Assembly (NCBI GenBank): GCA_017882705.1
Contig: JADGOZ010000178.1
Span: 1 to 38,082 of the forward strand
Direction of reading: 5' to 3'
Source of the DNA: Candidatus Nanopelagicales bacterium
GTDB taxonomy: Bacteria; Actinomycetota; Actinomycetes; S36-B12; CAIYMF01
DNA length: 38,082 bases
Both the position numbers and the translations under genes were made by a program. The notes beneath the pieces are model-generated. The model did not search any database. It was not told the origin of the DNA and worked only from the letters and a program-made list of their open reading frames with translations. This document shows positions 24,696 through 32,128 of this stretch, in pieces. The first letter of the stretch is position 1; every line of letters starts with the position of its first letter.

Positions 24696-27600
24696 TCAGC
24701 GGACCGTCACCGTTCGGGTGAGGCTTCGGGCCGCCTCGCCGACGAGGTTTCCGGCCTTCGCGATCGCGAGGGAGACGGAGACCTTGTAGGTGCCGGCCGT
24801 CGCCGTCCACGGGACGGTCACGACCAGGGTGCGCGGCCGACAGCCGGTGCAGGTCACGGTCTTCGTTGCGACGGTGCGACCGCGTGCGGTGACGGTGATG
24901 GTGAAGGTTCCCGTCGTCGCGGGGACGACGGTACGGATGACCACGCGGGCTGTGGCCGAGCTGCGGCCGCGATGCGCGCTCGTCGAGAGGGTGATGGGCT
25001 GGACCGTCGCGACGACGACCGCTCGGGTCCGTACGACGACGTGCCGTGTGCGTCCTGCGTGGGTGACCGCGACCGACAGCGTCGTCGCCGCGCCGGTCAG
25101 TGCCGCGACGGGCACGGTCATCCGGTCTCCTGCCGCCAGCGCGACCGCGAACCGTCGTGTCTGGGGGCCGGTGCCGCCTCGGAGGAGCGTCGTCGACGTC
25201 GTGAAGCTCATCGTCCCGCCGCTGCTCGTGCTCGCCGCGAGCGCGCCGCCGGTGACCTGCAGTGTCGTGGCCGATCCAGCTCCGCCGGCGACGGACATGG
25301 TCGTCGAGAGCAGGGCCTTCGTCGATCGGCTCACGCTCGTGACGGAGAGCGGCTTCGCCGTGGCCGTCCTGAAGCGCACGCCGCCGGGGACCGACGAGAC
25401 GACGTCGGTGGTGCCGCTCCTCGCCGAGGTGGCCACGGTCGAGACTCCGGACCGGTTGAGCACGCTCACCTGGTACGGCGCGCTCGCCGTCGCCTTCAGG
25501 GAGAGCGCGGCGGTGCCCGGCACCGAGAGCAGGCCGCCGGACTTCCCGCCGCTGAACCCGAGGGGGACGGTGCCCGCGGGCAGAGCGGTCGGCTCGACCG
25601 GGGAGGGCGCGCTGCCCGACGTCGTGGCGGTCGACCCGAAGGTCACGAGGGACGACGCGAAGCCCAGCAGCCCGGTGAAGCTCGGGATGTGCTGCGCCTT
25701 CGTCACGAAGGAGTACGGCAGCACGACGAGTCCGGGGTTGGTCGACCAGCTGCCGCCCCAGGTCTTGCCACCCATGTCGTAGTGCCAGCCGCCGGTGTCG
25801 AAGAAGATCTTGCTGCCGTCGTGCCGACCCACGTGGGCGACCCCCGTCGTGTCCGTGTCCTCCTCGGGCGTGTACTCCTTGTTGTTGTCGTAGACGTCGA
25901 TCGCCCAGCCGAGTCCGCCGAGGTCCTCGAGCCCGTAGGCGACGACCACGTGGCCGCTGAAGGTGAATCCGTCGCGCATGGCGATCAGGGCGGGTCCCTG
26001 GGCCAGGGCCGACTGCAGCCGAAGCTTCGTCGGGAGCGAGGCGGCCAGCTCGTTCTGCACGTTCTGGTCGATGACGGCACCGAGCGTCTCGAGGCTGAAC
26101 TGCTGGAGATGAGCCGCCTGGATCGCCTGGTCCAGCGCGGCCGAGTGCGGAAGGCCGTACACCGTGCTCGTGGTGTGCGGGTACGCCGTCACGGACATCG
26201 CTCCCATGATGAAACGCATGTCGGTCGCGGAGATGCCGTAGCAGTGCCCGCTTCCGGACGTGCCGACGGTGAGGGACCGGACGATGGCGGTCCAGATCAT
26301 CGCGATGGGGTCGCGGAAGCTGACGTTGCAGCCACCGGGCCAGCACAGGTCGATCGTGTCGTACATCTGATCGTGCCCGAAGGCGCGCACCATGTCGTCG
26401 TAGACCAGGTCGTTGACCGGGTAGTTGTGGAACGCGAAGGCGTTGGTGTTGCGGTAGGTCCGGCTCGTCACCGAGCCCGCGGGCACGGGCGAGCCGCCGC
26501 CGGCCGGGTGGACCTGCAGGGGACCCGAGGTCGCGTAGGCCGGTGTCGAGACCGTGTAGTGCCGGAGGTCCGGCCCGCTGATCTGCGGTGCCCACAGCCC
26601 CGACGTCAGCGGCGCGACGGCCTTGTCGTTGCCGACCGTGGCAGTGCTGCCGGCGCAGAAGCCGGCGCCGGTGAGGTCGAAGACCGTGGCGGTCTGCGGC
26701 AGGCCGAGTCCGGGATCACCGATCGGTGGCACCACCTGGCGGTTCGCCGTCGCGACCGCCGGAGCGACCTCGGTGAGCTTGGCCCGCACGACGGTCGTGT
26801 CGGTGGGGTGCCCGACGACGGTCGCCGTGACCTCGAGCCACACGCCGCCCTGCGGCGCGGCGCCGGGGGACGACCACGACACGGTCGTGTCGCGGCCGCC
26901 GTCGTTCGAGGCGAACGAGAGGACGGCCGGAGCGACTGTCACGTCCCAGCCCGGGGTGAGGATCGGCTGCTGCGCGGAGTCGAGCATCCGAGCCGTGACA
27001 GCGATGTCGCCGGCGAAGTCGGGCAGCTTCTCCACCCGCACGTTGCGCGACTGCGGGGTGCACGCCGCGGTGTAGGGCCGGGTCAGCCCGAGCGGGAAGG
27101 AGGCCGTCGTACTGGTGGTCAACGACTGCAGCACCGGTGTGCCGGTGCCGACGGCGGGAACGCCCGCCCCGTCGCCCCCGAGCGACACGTCGAGCGGTCC
27201 CGCGGCAGGCGTGCCCGGCGCAGCGCTGAAGGTCACGACCGTGGCGCCGGTGGCGCTGCCCGAGTACGACGGCGGGCTGAAGGTCGCCGTCACACCGGCG
27301 GGCAGACCCGTCGCGACGAGCGTCACGAGTCCCGCGGAGCCGTTGGACCGGGTCAGGTGCAGCGCCACGCTCGGCGACGACGACGGCGACACGACGACCG
27401 AGGGCACGAACGCGTCCTTGGTGACGGCGAAGGCCGGAGCGGCCGCGGGGTCGTTGGAGTAGGTGAGGTCGTCGAGCCACACCTGCGGTCCGACGTACGC
27501 CGACCGGATGAGCACCCACTGGAGGCCGGAGCCCCCGCCGCTGACGCTGAAGAACGTCGTGGCGCCGCCGGGCGAGACGAGGTCCTGGTCCACGGTCTGG

Positions 27601-28148
27601 TCGGACGTGCGCGTGCCGTCGGCGGAGAAGCCCATCACGCGGAACGAGGAGGTGCCGCTCGACGTACCCGTGCCGATGTAGCCGGAGACCGACAGGCAGA
27701 CGGTGGGGCACCGCAGCAGGATCGCGTCGTTGGAGAACTCGCCCGCGGCGCACCCGATCGGGCCGGCGGCCAGCACGGACGACGGGGAGTGCATGCGGTA
27801 GCCGTCGGGGACCGAGACGGTCTTCACCGGCGCGCTCATCCCGACGCAGAGCGGGTAGCCCTTCGTTCCGTCGGCGAACGTGAAGCCGAGATCGGCCGGT
27901 GTCCCGAACTGCACGCCGTGGACTCCGTCGGAGTACTCGGTCGTGACGGGGCCCGAGGCCGGCATGCAGTCCTCGAAGGTGATCGTCGCCGACGCCTGTC
28001 CGGCCGTGGCCGGGAAGCACGGCAGCGCGATGTCGGCTCTCGCGGCCGACGGCGCCAGCACGCCGACCAGCAGCGCCACGACGGCGGCGACGATGACCGG
28101 GAGCAGGTGCGGGTGGGGCGGACGCGGAGCCTCTCGGTGCCCGCTCAT
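24696..28148 (-). CDS. Large secreted multidomain protein with papain-like cysteine peptidase signature
   Basis: A 1150-residue predicted exported protein; I recognise no named family for the whole. The start is the ATG at 28148-28146, sharing one base with the lipoprotein stop (TGATG). A signal peptide is clear (hydrophobic residues 15-32, likely cut after Ala38, ARA-D). Then come a jelly-roll-like region (about 53-233, ITFEDC ... VWLDDLTYSND), an Ig-like repeat (238-330, GLPAGVTATFSPPSYSG), and an IPT/TIG-like stretch around 490-560 (LTGAGFCAGSTATVGN). A papain-like segment follows, with Cys636 in GSGHCYGIS, His733 in FSGHVVVAYG and Asp754/Asn755-756 in IDVYDNN. The last 150 residues are beta-rich, Thr/Val/Arg-rich and basic. 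There is no sorting signal or C-terminal membrane segment, so it is probably released or wall-bound non-covalently. Catalysis is inferred, not shown. Confidence 0.8.
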   Translation of the reverse strand: MSGHREAPRPPHPHLLPVIVAAVVALLVGVLAPSAARADIALPCFPATAGQASATITFEDCMPASGPVTTEYSDGVHGVQFGTPADLGFTFADGTKGYPLCVGMSAPVKTVSVPDGYRMHSPSSVLAAGPIGCAAGEFSNDAILLRCPTVCLSVSGYIGTGTSSGTSSFRVMGFSADGTRTSDQTVDQDLVSPGGATTFFSVSGGGSGLQWVLIRSAYVGPQVWLDDLTYSNDPAAAPAFAVTKDAFVPSVVVSPSSSPSVALHLTRSNGSAGLVTLVATGLPAGVTATFSPPSYSGSATGATVVTFSAAPGTPAAGPLDVSLGGDGAGVPAVGTGTPVLQSLTTSTTASFPLGLTRPYTAACTPQSRNVRVEKLPDFAGDIAVTARMLDSAQQPILTPGWDVTVAPAVLSFASNDGGRDTTVSWSSPGAAPQGGVWLEVTATVVGHPTDTTVVRAKLTEVAPAVATANRQVVPPIGDPGLGLPQTATVFDLTGAGFCAGSTATVGNDKAVAPLTSGLWAPQISGPDLRHYTVSTPAYATSGPLQVHPAGGGSPVPAGSVTSRTYRNTNAFAFHNYPVNDLVYDDMVRAFGHDQMYDTIDLCWPGGCNVSFRDPIAMIWTAIVRSLTVGTSGSGHCYGISATDMRFIMGAMSVTAYPHTTSTVYGLPHSAALDQAIQAAHLQQFSLETLGAVIDQNVQNELAASLPTKLRLQSALAQGPALIAMRDGFTFSGHVVVAYGLEDLGGLGWAIDVYDNNKEYTPEEDTDTTGVAHVGRHDGSKIFFDTGGWHYDMGGKTWGGSWSTNPGLVVLPYSFVTKAQHIPSFTGLLGFASSLVTFGSTATTSGSAPSPVEPTALPAGTVPLGFSGGKSGGLLSVPGTAALSLKATASAPYQVSVLNRSGVSTVATSARSGTTDVVSSVPGGVRFRTATAKPLSVTSVSRSTKALLSTTMSVAGGAGSATTLQVTGGALAASTSSGGTMSFTTSTTLLRGGTGPQTRRFAVALAAGDRMTVPVAALTGAATTLSVAVTHAGRTRHVVVRTRAVVVATVQPITLSTSAHRGRSSATARVVIRTVVPATTGTFTITVTARGRTVATKTVTCTGCRPRTLVVTVPWTATAGTYKVSVSLAIAKAGNLVGEAARSLTRTVTVR

Positions 28149-28807: not shown

Positions 28808-28869
28808 GGGGACCTCCGGGGGCCGCGAGCCTGGGCGTGACTCGAGGACACCAGCCGCGGGGGCCGGGC

Positions 28870-28892
28870 GGCACCGGGTGAATCCCTGGCAG
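28870..28892 (-). promoter_or_regulatory. 23-bp shared element upstream of the lipoprotein gene
   Basis: On the minus strand this reads CTGCCAGGGATT-N2-C-N2-GGTGCC. A copy identical at 19 of 23 positions lies at 31684-31706, in the luxR/small-gene divergent region. It is 62-84 nt upstream of the lipoprotein ATG, a position typical for an activator site. Both copies are preceded by CGGGGC. The LuxR-type regulator encoded between the two copies is the obvious candidate to bind it; this is inference. Confidence 0.5.
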
Positions 28893-28903
28893 TGCCCCGC
28901 CGG

Positions 28904-31645
28904 TCACTCCTCGCCGGGCGGTACGCCGTCTGCCGGAGGGGTCAGGAGGAGCCGGACCAGGTCCGACCGGTTGCGGACGCCGAGCTTGCGGTAGATGCGG
29001 CCGAGGTGGAACTCGACGGTCTTGCTGGACAGGAACAACGTCGCGGCGATCTCCTTGTTCGACAGCCCGGACGCCGCGGCCGTCGCCACCCTCGTCTCGG
29101 ACGCGGTGAGCGCGTCGTCGCGCGCGGCACCGGTGCGCAGGGTCGCCCCGGAGCCCCGGAGCTCGTCCTGGGTGCGCGCGAGCCACGGCGCGGCGCCGAG
29201 CGCGGCGAAGTCGGTCTCGGCCCCGCGCAGCGCGGCCCGAGCCTCGACCCGGTGACCGAGGCGTCGCAGCATCGCGCCGGAGCTGAGGCGGACCCGAGCC
29301 CGCGGGAACACGTACTCGACCCCGATGAGCTCGTCCGCCAGCGTCAGGCCCTCGTCGGCGAGCTCGCGCGAGTCCGGGCCGATGGCGCTGCGGGCCAGGA
29401 GCTCGCCGGCGCGCGACTCGGGTCGCGGATCGTCGCCGCTGCGAGCGAGCAGCAGGTCGAGGAGATCCCGCGCGTCGGTGCGCCGACCGGTCAGCGCCAG
29501 CGCCAGCGGAGCGTCGAAGTACTCGGGCTGGGCAGCGGCGACGCGGCCGGCGCGCAGGACCCGGGCCAGCGCGTCGGTCGGCTCGACCATCCCGCCGAGG
29601 TCGCCCACCGACAAGGACGCCAGCACCGAGCACCACAGGGCATCGGCGGTGCGCCACGGGCTGCCGACCGCCTCGGCCAGAGTGCTTGCCTCGTGGGCGT
29701 GCGCCAGCGCCTCCGCCGTATGACCCCGTGGACCCTCCAACGTGGCGACCTGGACGAGTGCGTCGGCGATGTCGGCGACCCGCCCGGACATGCGTGCCAG
29801 GTCCAGCACGTCGTCGGCCAGGACGGCCGCCGAGTCCCACTCCGCGACGGAGAAGTCGCACCACGCCAGTCCGCGTACGGCGTGGCCGCGGATACGTGTC
29901 TCGCCCTGCGCCCGCAGGCGCGACACCGCGGCGTCGATCGCAGGGCGCAGGCGCTTCGGGTGGCCGGACCACATCACCGCCTGCACTGTCATCGGCAGGA
30001 TCTCGACGTCGGAGGCGAGCAGGTCGTGGCTCTCGATGGCCTCGAGCGCGAGCTCGAGGTGGTCACGGCCGGCCTCGGTCCGGTCCGCGTTCAGCAGCAC
30101 GAAGCCCTGGACGGCGTGGGACCGGGCCACCTGGGGAGGCTCCTCCGGAGCCGCAGCGGCGGCGATCTCGTCGGCGAGCAGCGCCAGCCGACCGGCGTCG
30201 TCGAGGTGCAGCGCGGGATTGAAGCTCGCGGCGAGGGCCCGCACCTCGTGGTCGCGGTCGCCTGCCGCCCGGGCCTCCTCGACGGCGCGCAGGAACCAGT
30301 CCCAGGCGGCGAGGGGCGATGCGACGCCGTGGGCGATCTGGCCCGCGGTGAAGGCCAGCCGCCAGCGCAGGTCCGTGTCGCGCAACGACGGAAGGGCCTC
30401 CTCGATCAGTCGCGAGGCGGTCTCGGCGTCGTCGGCGGCCCAGGCCTCCAGCGCCGCGGCGGCGAGCCTCGGCGCCGGGTCGGCCCCCATCCGGGCGGCG
30501 GTCTCCCAGGCGTGCGACGACGCCTGGTGCGCGCCCCGTTCCGAGGCGGTCCTCGCCACCGCATCCAGCGCGTCGGCCAAGGCCTCGTCCGGACCGGTCG
30601 CGGCAGCCACCCGGTGCCACACGACGCCGGCCGACTCGCCGTCCGACGTCTCCAGCGCGTCCGCGAGCGCCCCGTGGATCCGCCGGAGCTGCGCTGCGTC
30701 GACGCAGTCGAGCGCCGCGGCACGGGCGAGCGGATGCCGCCACGTGACGCCGCTCAGGGTCACGCGCAGCAGGCCGGTCGCCTCGGCGGGGACGAGCGCG
30801 TCGTGCGACGTGCCGAGGCCGGCCAGCGCCTCGGCGAGGACCGCAGGCGGCAGGGTGTCCGCTGCCGCGGCGGCGACCGCGAGCCGGCCCTGCTCCGGAA
30901 GCGAGTCGAGGAGCCGGCGGTAGGCCATGGTGGGAGTGGTCGACGGCATCGGCCCGGGCAGGGGTGCGGCGCCCGCCCGCTGCGCGGGGGTCAGCAACCG
31001 GGCGAGCTCGACGAGCGCCAGGGGATTGCCGCCGCCGAGCGGCGCCAGGCGCTGGGCGACCGCACGTGCGACGCCGTGGTCGGCCAGCAGGGCGACCGCC
31101 TCCTCGTCGTCCAACGAGGGCAGGTCGTAGACCTCGATGCCGGTCAGAGCCACGCTCTCGGGGCGTGCGGTCAGGATCACGCCGACCGCGTCGTCCTCGA
31201 GTCGTCGAGCGGCGAAGCCGATCGCGTTGCGGGACTCCGAGTCCATCCAGTGCACGTCGTCGACCAGGAGGAGCACGGGTGCGTCGGTGGTCGCGGCGTC
31301 GAGCAGCGACAGCATCGCCGCACCGATGAGCAGGGGAGTGGGCGGGCTCCCGCTCGTCACGCCCAGGGCGAGGTCCAGGGCCTCGCGCTGAGCCGGGACC
31401 AGGCCGGCCACGAGGTGGCGCAGCGGGCGGACGAGCGCATGCAGGGTCGCGAACGGGAGGTCGCGCTCGTCCAGGGATCCTGCGCAGCGCAGCAGAGTCA
31501 ACCCTGCGGTGTCGGTCGCCGCCAGCAGTGCCGTCTTGCCGCTCCCGGCGTCGCCGCGCAGCAGCAGGGCGGCGCCACGGCCGGCGCGGGCACCGGACAC
31601 CACCCACGCGATCCGTTCGAACGCCTCCGAGCGGCCGACGAGCAC
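28904..31645 (-). CDS. Large ATP-binding LuxR-type (LAL) transcriptional regulator
   Basis: A 913-residue LAL-family regulator. The start is taken as the GTG at 31645-31643, which gives the family opening VLVGRSEAFERI; the frame is open further upstream but overlaps a small plus-strand gene and lacks family residues. Walker A GDAGSGKT is at 31-38, Walker B VLLLVDD at 124-130. A long helical repeat region (about 350-830, TPR-like) follows. The C-terminal LuxR helix-turn-helix occupies about 846-901 (LTASETRVATAAASGLSNKE, then SKTVEFHLGRIYRKLGVRNR). Such proteins are MalT-like switches that hydrolyse ATP and bind an inducer through the repeat region. A -10-like CATACT lies 6 nt before the GTG, suggesting a leaderless transcript. 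Downstream lie a lipoprotein and a secreted protein. Confidence 0.9.
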   Translation of the reverse strand: MLVGRSEAFERIAWVVSGARAGRGAALLLRGDAGSGKTALLAATDTAGLTLLRCAGSLDERDLPFATLHALVRPLRHLVAGLVPAQREALDLALGVTSGSPPTPLLIGAAMLSLLDAATTDAPVLLLVDDVHWMDSESRNAIGFAARRLEDDAVGVILTARPESVALTGIEVYDLPSLDDEEAVALLADHGVARAVAQRLAPLGGGNPLALVELARLLTPAQRAGAAPLPGPMPSTTPTMAYRRLLDSLPEQGRLAVAAAAADTLPPAVLAEALAGLGTSHDALVPAEATGLLRVTLSGVTWRHPLARAAALDCVDAAQLRRIHGALADALETSDGESAGVVWHRVAAATGPDEALADALDAVARTASERGAHQASSHAWETAARMGADPAPRLAAAALEAWAADDAETASRLIEEALPSLRDTDLRWRLAFTAGQIAHGVASPLAAWDWFLRAVEEARAAGDRDHEVRALAASFNPALHLDDAGRLALLADEIAAAAAPEEPPQVARSHAVQGFVLLNADRTEAGRDHLELALEAIESHDLLASDVEILPMTVQAVMWSGHPKRLRPAIDAAVSRLRAQGETRIRGHAVRGLAWCDFSVAEWDSAAVLADDVLDLARMSGRVADIADALVQVATLEGPRGHTAEALAHAHEASTLAEAVGSPWRTADALWCSVLASLSVGDLGGMVEPTDALARVLRAGRVAAAQPEYFDAPLALALTGRRTDARDLLDLLLARSGDDPRPESRAGELLARSAIGPDSRELADEGLTLADELIGVEYVFPRARVRLSSGAMLRRLGHRVEARAALRGAETDFAALGAAPWLARTQDELRGSGATLRTGAARDDALTASETRVATAAASGLSNKEIAATLFLSSKTVEFHLGRIYRKLGVRNRSDLVRLLLTPPADGVPPGEE

Positions 31646-31651
31646 AAGCGC

Positions 31652-31657
31652 AGTATG
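31652..31657 (-). promoter_or_regulatory. -10-like box CATACT before the LuxR-type gene
   Basis: On the minus strand CATACT ends 6 nt before the GTG at 31645, so transcription would start at or beside the start codon. No ribosome site is seen. The -35 region is not clear, which would fit a promoter needing an activator. Confidence 0.35.
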
Positions 31658-31683
31658 GGCGTACCGGCCGTCGGCCGGGGCTG

Positions 31684-31706
31684 CTGCCAGGGATTGCCTG
31701 GGTGCC
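31684..31706 (+). promoter_or_regulatory. 23-bp shared element in the luxR / small-gene divergent promoter
   Basis: It reads CTGCCAGGGATT-GCCTGG-GTGCC on the plus strand and matches 19 of 23 positions of the element at 28870-28892. An inverted repeat CCAGG-N5-CCTGG (31687-31701) is embedded in this copy. It lies 39 nt before the luxR start and about 33 nt before the small plus-strand gene. It points toward the small gene just as the other copy points toward the lipoprotein gene. Confidence 0.5.
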
Positions 31707-31738: not shown

Positions 31739-32128
31739 GTGCCCGATCCTGTCCTCGCGTCCGGTGCCTGGCGGCTCGCCGGGCGCCGTCTCGGAGACCG
31801 GGAGGGCCCGGGGGGCGAGTTCTGCGCCCTCGTCCTGCTCACCGCCGATGGCACCCTGTCGGTGTCCGTCGACGACGCGACGGGCGCTACCGGGATCGGC
31901 GGCTGGCGTTCCGCCGGCGACCGCCGGCTGGTGGCGCACGTGGAGCTCTTCCTCCGGGACCCCACCTTGCGCGGACCGGACCGGGTCGTGGTCCGCGCGG
32001 CGGCCGAGCTCTCTCCCGACGGAGTCTCCGCCTCGGTCCGGCTGCGGTGGCGGCTCGTCGCCCGTCGCGGCGGGGCGGCAGGGCCCGCAGTCGGCTGCGA
32101 GGGGCGCGCCGAACGGCTCCAGCCGTGA
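31739..32128 (+). CDS. Small uncharacterised protein, divergent from the LuxR-type gene
   Basis: A 129-residue protein with no recognised family. Third codon positions are strongly G/C, and the sequence alternates hydrophobic strands with turns (SGAWRLAGRRLG, FCALVLLTADGTLSVSVDD, TGIGGWRSAGDRRLVAHVEL, RVVVRAAAELSPDGVSASVR). This pattern resembles small beta-barrel or SnoaL/lipocalin-like proteins that open with a G-x-W motif. It has no signal peptide or membrane segment. The start is uncertain: GTG at 31739, 31730 or 31715 are all in frame and none has a good ribosome site. The regulatory element at 31684-31706 sits just upstream. Confidence 0.55.
   Translation: MPDPVLASGAWRLAGRRLGDREGPGGEFCALVLLTADGTLSVSVDDATGATGIGGWRSAGDRRLVAHVELFLRDPTLRGPDRVVVRAAAELSPDGVSASVRLRWRLVARRGGAAGPAVGCEGRAERLQP

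Follow-up and report, generated by a model that had tools for sequence, protein, structure and literature searches.

A candidate 23-bp operator on both sides of a LAL-type regulator gene in an actinobacterial genome and its orthologous clusters

Two copies of a 23-bp sequence lie in opposite orientation around a single large LuxR-type regulator gene, raising the question of whether they are the binding sites of the protein encoded between them. Few LAL regulators have known binding sites. For SCO6993 a consensus is reported not to have been predictable (PMC9628970). The window, by which we mean the whole 38,082-nucleotide stretch of Candidatus Nanopelagicales DNA that was analysed, contains the following features at this locus.

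24696-28148, minus strand: large exported protein of 1150 aa, only in the cluster of the window genome
28148-28807, minus strand: lipoprotein of 219 aa with an LSAC lipobox; its gene opens the operon that follows the dn-site
28846-28854, minus strand: CTGGTGTCC, a SYGGTSYCC-like box 15 bp past the dn-site
28870-28892, minus strand: dn-site, candidate operator copy between the LAL stop and the lipoprotein gene
28904-31645, minus strand: LAL-type regulator of 913 aa with N-terminal AAA_16 ATPase and C-terminal GerE/LuxR HTH
31652-31657, minus strand: CATACT, resembling a -10 and placed 6 bp ahead of the LAL start codon (in the orthologues TAGACT, TAGACT and TACACT)
31684-31706, plus strand: up-site, candidate operator copy in the gap that separates LAL from the divergent small gene
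31739-32128, plus strand: small divergent protein of 129 aa, kept in all four clusters and predicted to form an eight-stranded calycin-like beta barrel

The paired element and the genes around it

The dn-site (CTGCCAGGGATTCACCCGGTGCC) and the up-site (CTGCCAGGGATTGCCTGGGTGCC) were identical at 19 of 23 bases, and their positions and strands were as given in the first-pass annotation, which had also correctly placed the LAL gene between them. The dn-site begins 11 bp past the LAL stop and the up-site lies 38 bp upstream of the LAL start codon. Dyad symmetry inside the single sites was weak. No further copy was found in the window at up to three mismatches (0.03 matches expected), nor was a third copy present in the whole assembly (3.56 Mb, 194 contigs) even at three mismatches, so the genome-wide search that had been proposed returned the cluster copies only. 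In 17 of 5000 dinucleotide shuffles the best 23-mer match between the two intergenic regions, in either orientation, reached at least 19 (p about 0.0034), and the earlier chance estimate of 1 in 1000 was therefore somewhat optimistic. On its own the coincidence within the window is modest and only suggestive. The CGGGGC that precedes both copies in the window, which the first-pass annotation had pointed out, was not conserved in the three other genomes described below and is a chance identity outside the element.

The regulator has the sequence features of the LAL family, namely an AAA/STAND-type ATPase, a C-terminal HTH and a length (913 aa) within the family range of about 800-1000 residues. 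Its AAA_16 match (E 3e-15, residues 2-152) includes the Walker A and B motifs GDAGSGKT and LLLVDDVHW, and the GerE match (E 1e-17) covers residues 845-899 in an HTH that was nearly invariant among the four LAL orthologues. The GTG start at 31645 is backed by the orthologues, all of which begin (M/V)LVGR. The MalT equivalog model NF003420 scored 28.8 bits against a cut-off of 537 with a match limited to the HTH, ruling out a MalT equivalog, while a PAS-LuxR protein of the PimM type was ruled out by a Pfam scan in which a PAS domain was absent.

The lipoprotein gave no match in Pfam, PDB or plasmid searches and its fold prediction (pLDDT 36) was too poor for use. The exported protein starts at an ATG that shares bases with the stop codon of the lipoprotein gene (ATGA). 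Its Cys motif (CYGIS) and His motif (GHVVVAYG) point to a papain-like fold. For this protein Pfam and PDB gave no match and 118 relatives no orthologue; weak matches of 22-27% identity over the peptidase-like part alone fell in four genomes, all from a single other family. The start of the small gene (GTG, 31739) was fixed by alignment with its orthologues, and the small protein was modelled (pLDDT 84) as an antiparallel barrel of eight strands that matches calycin-like folds at low scores.

Conservation and specificity of the site

LAL orthologues were sought in 119 relatives, 395 class genomes, the relatives of two carriers and 166 order genomes, these sets overlapping. Close orthologues were rare, with four carriers found: the window genome (G000), its congener G007 (JAKOVT010000032.1), and G188 (PLCK01000286.1) and G137 from other families. 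The three further orthologues were 51-67% identical to the window LAL. The comparison of orthologous clusters, on which the first-pass annotation had staked its proposal, came out in favour of the element as all three further genomes carried both sites beside the LAL gene. The order small gene, site, LAL, site, lipoprotein was common to all four genomes, and spacing was narrow at most positions. The distance from LAL stop to dn-site was 11 bp in the window genome and 14, 14 and 15 bp in the others, that from dn-site to lipoprotein start 62, 63, 65 and 54 bp, and that from up-site to small-gene start 32, 32, 31 and 30 bp. The LAL start lay 38 bp from the up-site in the window genome, 39 and 37 bp in two others and 75 bp in G007. 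All eight sites share T2, G3, G7-G9, T12, C15, G21 and C22. In a prospective test the motif derived from the window was found in 6 of 6 orthologous intergenic regions (combined p 7e-12 for the 12-mer and 7e-14 for the 19-position pattern). More distant LAL genes (at most 39% identity) were without a site at the corresponding positions. The LAL gene of G014 (34% identity) had no site and different neighbours.

The lipoprotein gene was seemingly broken in two of the four carriers, both draft MAGs. In G007 (G007:C236, L026 17571-17850) it breaks off at about 87 codons, with a transposase-like frame behind it at the contig end; the same contig carries an integrase gene (L026 9625-10863), and its LAL gene is split into two overlapping frames by one frameshift at about 16600, perhaps an assembly error. 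In G137 the lipoprotein gene beside LAL (G137:C174, L056 12619-13080) was readable only with frameshifts and was 39% identical to the window lipoprotein across the readable part; contig C376 of this genome carries an intact gene for a different type of lipoprotein behind the same promoter. As read from these sequences, the type of lipoprotein is swapped between clusters while the predicted promoter and site stay.

Sites were counted genome-wide by pattern and model searches. A degenerate consensus covering all eight sites had two exact matches each in G000 and G007, all of them in the cluster, three in G188 and four in G137, and was absent from seven related genomes without a LAL orthologue. 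As the consensus was built from these eight sites, the cluster matches occur by construction and the absence elsewhere is the finding. A strict dn-site pattern run on 375 class genomes matched before lipoprotein genes in all three LAL carriers of that set; single matches in G365 and G370 were inside genes and were read as chance. Of the matches at three mismatches in the congeners, only G007:C236 was at the cluster. Model R2 gave E-values of 3e-13 to 2e-11 for four promoters, all in its training set, against 0.005 for the best other match.

One exact match in G137 (G137:C376) was on a contig other than that of LAL, with a second lipoprotein gene following after 84 bp, and had the 15-bp spacing to a SYGGTSYCC-like box seen at the cluster promoters. 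The encoded lipoprotein is a 35% identical relative of the one beside LAL in G188. A match at G137:C299 (L087 6937-6958, CTGCCGGGGAATCCCCTGCTGC) is a possible further site; a peroxiredoxin gene follows at a distance of about 75 bp. The match falls within the 3' end of a frame resembling alcohol dehydrogenases and is without the second box. The extra exact match G188:C87 was rejected since it sits within a cell-wall-binding-repeat gene, and three overlapping matches at G009:C150:27490-27548, in 18-bp steps, are a tandem repeat with a chance resemblance. A wider regulon was likewise rejected, as the consensus at one mismatch gave 4-17 matches per genome, in most about as many as a reversed control pattern. 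With so few specific matches genome-wide, the regulon seems to consist of two or three promoters. The element thus keeps its place beside the regulator gene in the orthologous clusters and is rare elsewhere in the genome, as is looked for in the operator of a local regulator.

Promoter geometry and the proposed circuit

A -10-like hexamer (TAGACT, TACACT or CATACT) was located 6-9 bp before the LAL start codon in 4 of 4 genomes, which suggests a probably leaderless LAL transcript. A good -35 was not visible in this promoter. In three of the four genomes 37-39 bp separate the end of the up-site from the LAL start codon; if the transcript is leaderless, the site would lie just upstream of the -35 region, a position at which LuxR-type activators bind (PMC7567727, PMC9774167). 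In G007 the up-site is 37 bp farther away and GATGCT occupies the usual distance. All lipoprotein promoters featured the SYGGTSYCC-like box, at 15, 15, 15 and 15 bp from the site, with that of G007 at 26 bp or one helical turn more. This box may be a -10 or a second contact; a consensus -10 was absent from the lipoprotein promoters inspected.

Because the element recurs at the same two positions beside LAL in three other actinobacteria, we read it as the operator of LAL itself, the only recognisable DNA-binding protein kept in the module. The LAL protein, with ligand and ATP, would bind an imperfect dyad with a consensus of about CTGCCRGGGRTT-N2-C-N2-GGYGC and, bound just upstream of the -35 region, would activate its target promoters. 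The up-site would govern the divergent promoters of LAL and of the small calycin-like protein, and the dn-site that of the lipoprotein gene, in the window genome first in an operon with the large peptidase-like protein. Binding, activation and autoregulation are inferred here from sequence, and we give the reading of the copies as operators of this MalT-like regulator, activating promoters that include its own, a probability of roughly 0.77. There is precedent in the MalT-like regulator of Actinoplanes, with a palindrome that ends 34 bp upstream of the start site (PMC7567727), and in the LAL protein SCO6993, which binds its own promoter (PMC9628970).

The regulon put forward in the first-pass annotation, a surface lipoprotein, a secreted peptidase and a small protein, stood in part. 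The shared promoter element is tied to LAL and the lipoprotein and small genes are conserved neighbours, whereas the peptidase was found only in the cluster of the window genome and is not conserved as a member; the G007 contig, ending shortly after the lipoprotein start, is uninformative on this point. The up-site had been taken to point at the small gene, which is indeed conserved, but as the site is located between two divergent genes LAL is an equally likely target, by autoregulation.

It is possible, if unlikely, that LAL binds the same sites as a repressor of its own gene and the lipoprotein genes and is relieved by a ligand. In Streptomyces coelicolor the LAL protein SCO6993 acts as a repressor of its targets (PMC9628970), and the up-site, only 30-32 bp from the small-gene start, could block the promoter of that gene. 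However, the sites are upstream of the LAL -10 and not over it, the lack of a visible -35 resembles activator-dependent promoters, and MalT and PAS-LuxR proteins activate at -35 (PMC7567727, PMC9774167). Improbable is the proposal that another, perhaps global, regulator owns the sites and controls LAL as a mere regulon member together with the lipoprotein genes. Regulator genes are often controlled by regulators encoded elsewhere, but many sites would be expected of a global one, and those found were only beside LAL and at one lipoprotein promoter in a LAL carrier, being absent in relatives without LAL; the module is moreover patchy across families and yet the site travels along with it.

The inverted orientation of the copies, exactly bracketing LAL in a patchily distributed module, would also fit terminal inverted repeats of a mobile unit carrying the LAL gene. 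This is highly improbable and is contradicted by a conserved unit that does not end at the repeats, since the small and lipoprotein genes are outside them and yet kept in 4 of 4 genomes. At positions 13-17 each copy is nearer to its counterparts elsewhere than to the other copy (GCCTG vs CACCC), an unpaired copy precedes the lipoprotein gene at G137:C376, and a transposase is absent inside the unit. Chance similarity of two GC-rich intergenic regions, to which the window alone would leave some room (p about 0.003), is refuted by the replication in the orthologous clusters of three further genomes.

The window LAL was 67% and 63% identical to the proteins from other families vs 51% to that of the congener G007, and carriers are scattered, so that horizontal transfer of the module as a whole, with its operators, is probable. 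A more speculative proposal, and one we consider doubtful, gives the lipoprotein and the cytosolic calycin-like barrel the role of dedicated ligand-binding partners feeding the LAL ATPase, in a horizontally moving, self-contained four-part sensing cassette with exchangeable lipoproteins under the same operator. A LAL protein with its own small regulon is a real and ordinary kind of gene circuit. Phylogenetic footprinting here yields a concrete candidate operator of 23 bp, a regulon of two to three promoters and a promoter geometry that is fixed, and indicates that genomes of other families can confirm a regulatory element first put forward on raw sequence only.

Comparison with known LuxR-type systems

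SCO6993 is likewise a LAL regulator and binds short inverted repeats in its own promoter, but it represses antibiotic regulators and a consensus for its sites was not derivable (PMC9628970). The site of PimM-type PAS-LuxR regulators is CTVGGGAWWTCCCBAG (PMC9774167). These systems differ in that the regulator here is a large ATPase without a PAS domain and no polyketide cluster is present, while a GGGAWT core and a GerE-type HTH are shared, and the best site, the dn-site of G007 (CCAGGGAATCCCCTGA), matches at 12 of 16 positions. Among MalT-type systems the enteric site is GGGGA(T/G)GAGG and that of the MalT-like LuxR regulator of Actinoplanes sp. SE50/110 is TCATCC-5nt-GGATGA (PMC7567727). The core here is instead CAGGGATT, with two or three sites vs 17, and the candidate targets are lipoproteins and a calycin-like protein in a locus without sugar-metabolism genes. 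Common to both are a large ATP-binding LuxR-type protein, a site with a short G-run core upstream of or overlapping the -35, and the retention of sites with the regulator across relatives, the two apparently having been transferred together.
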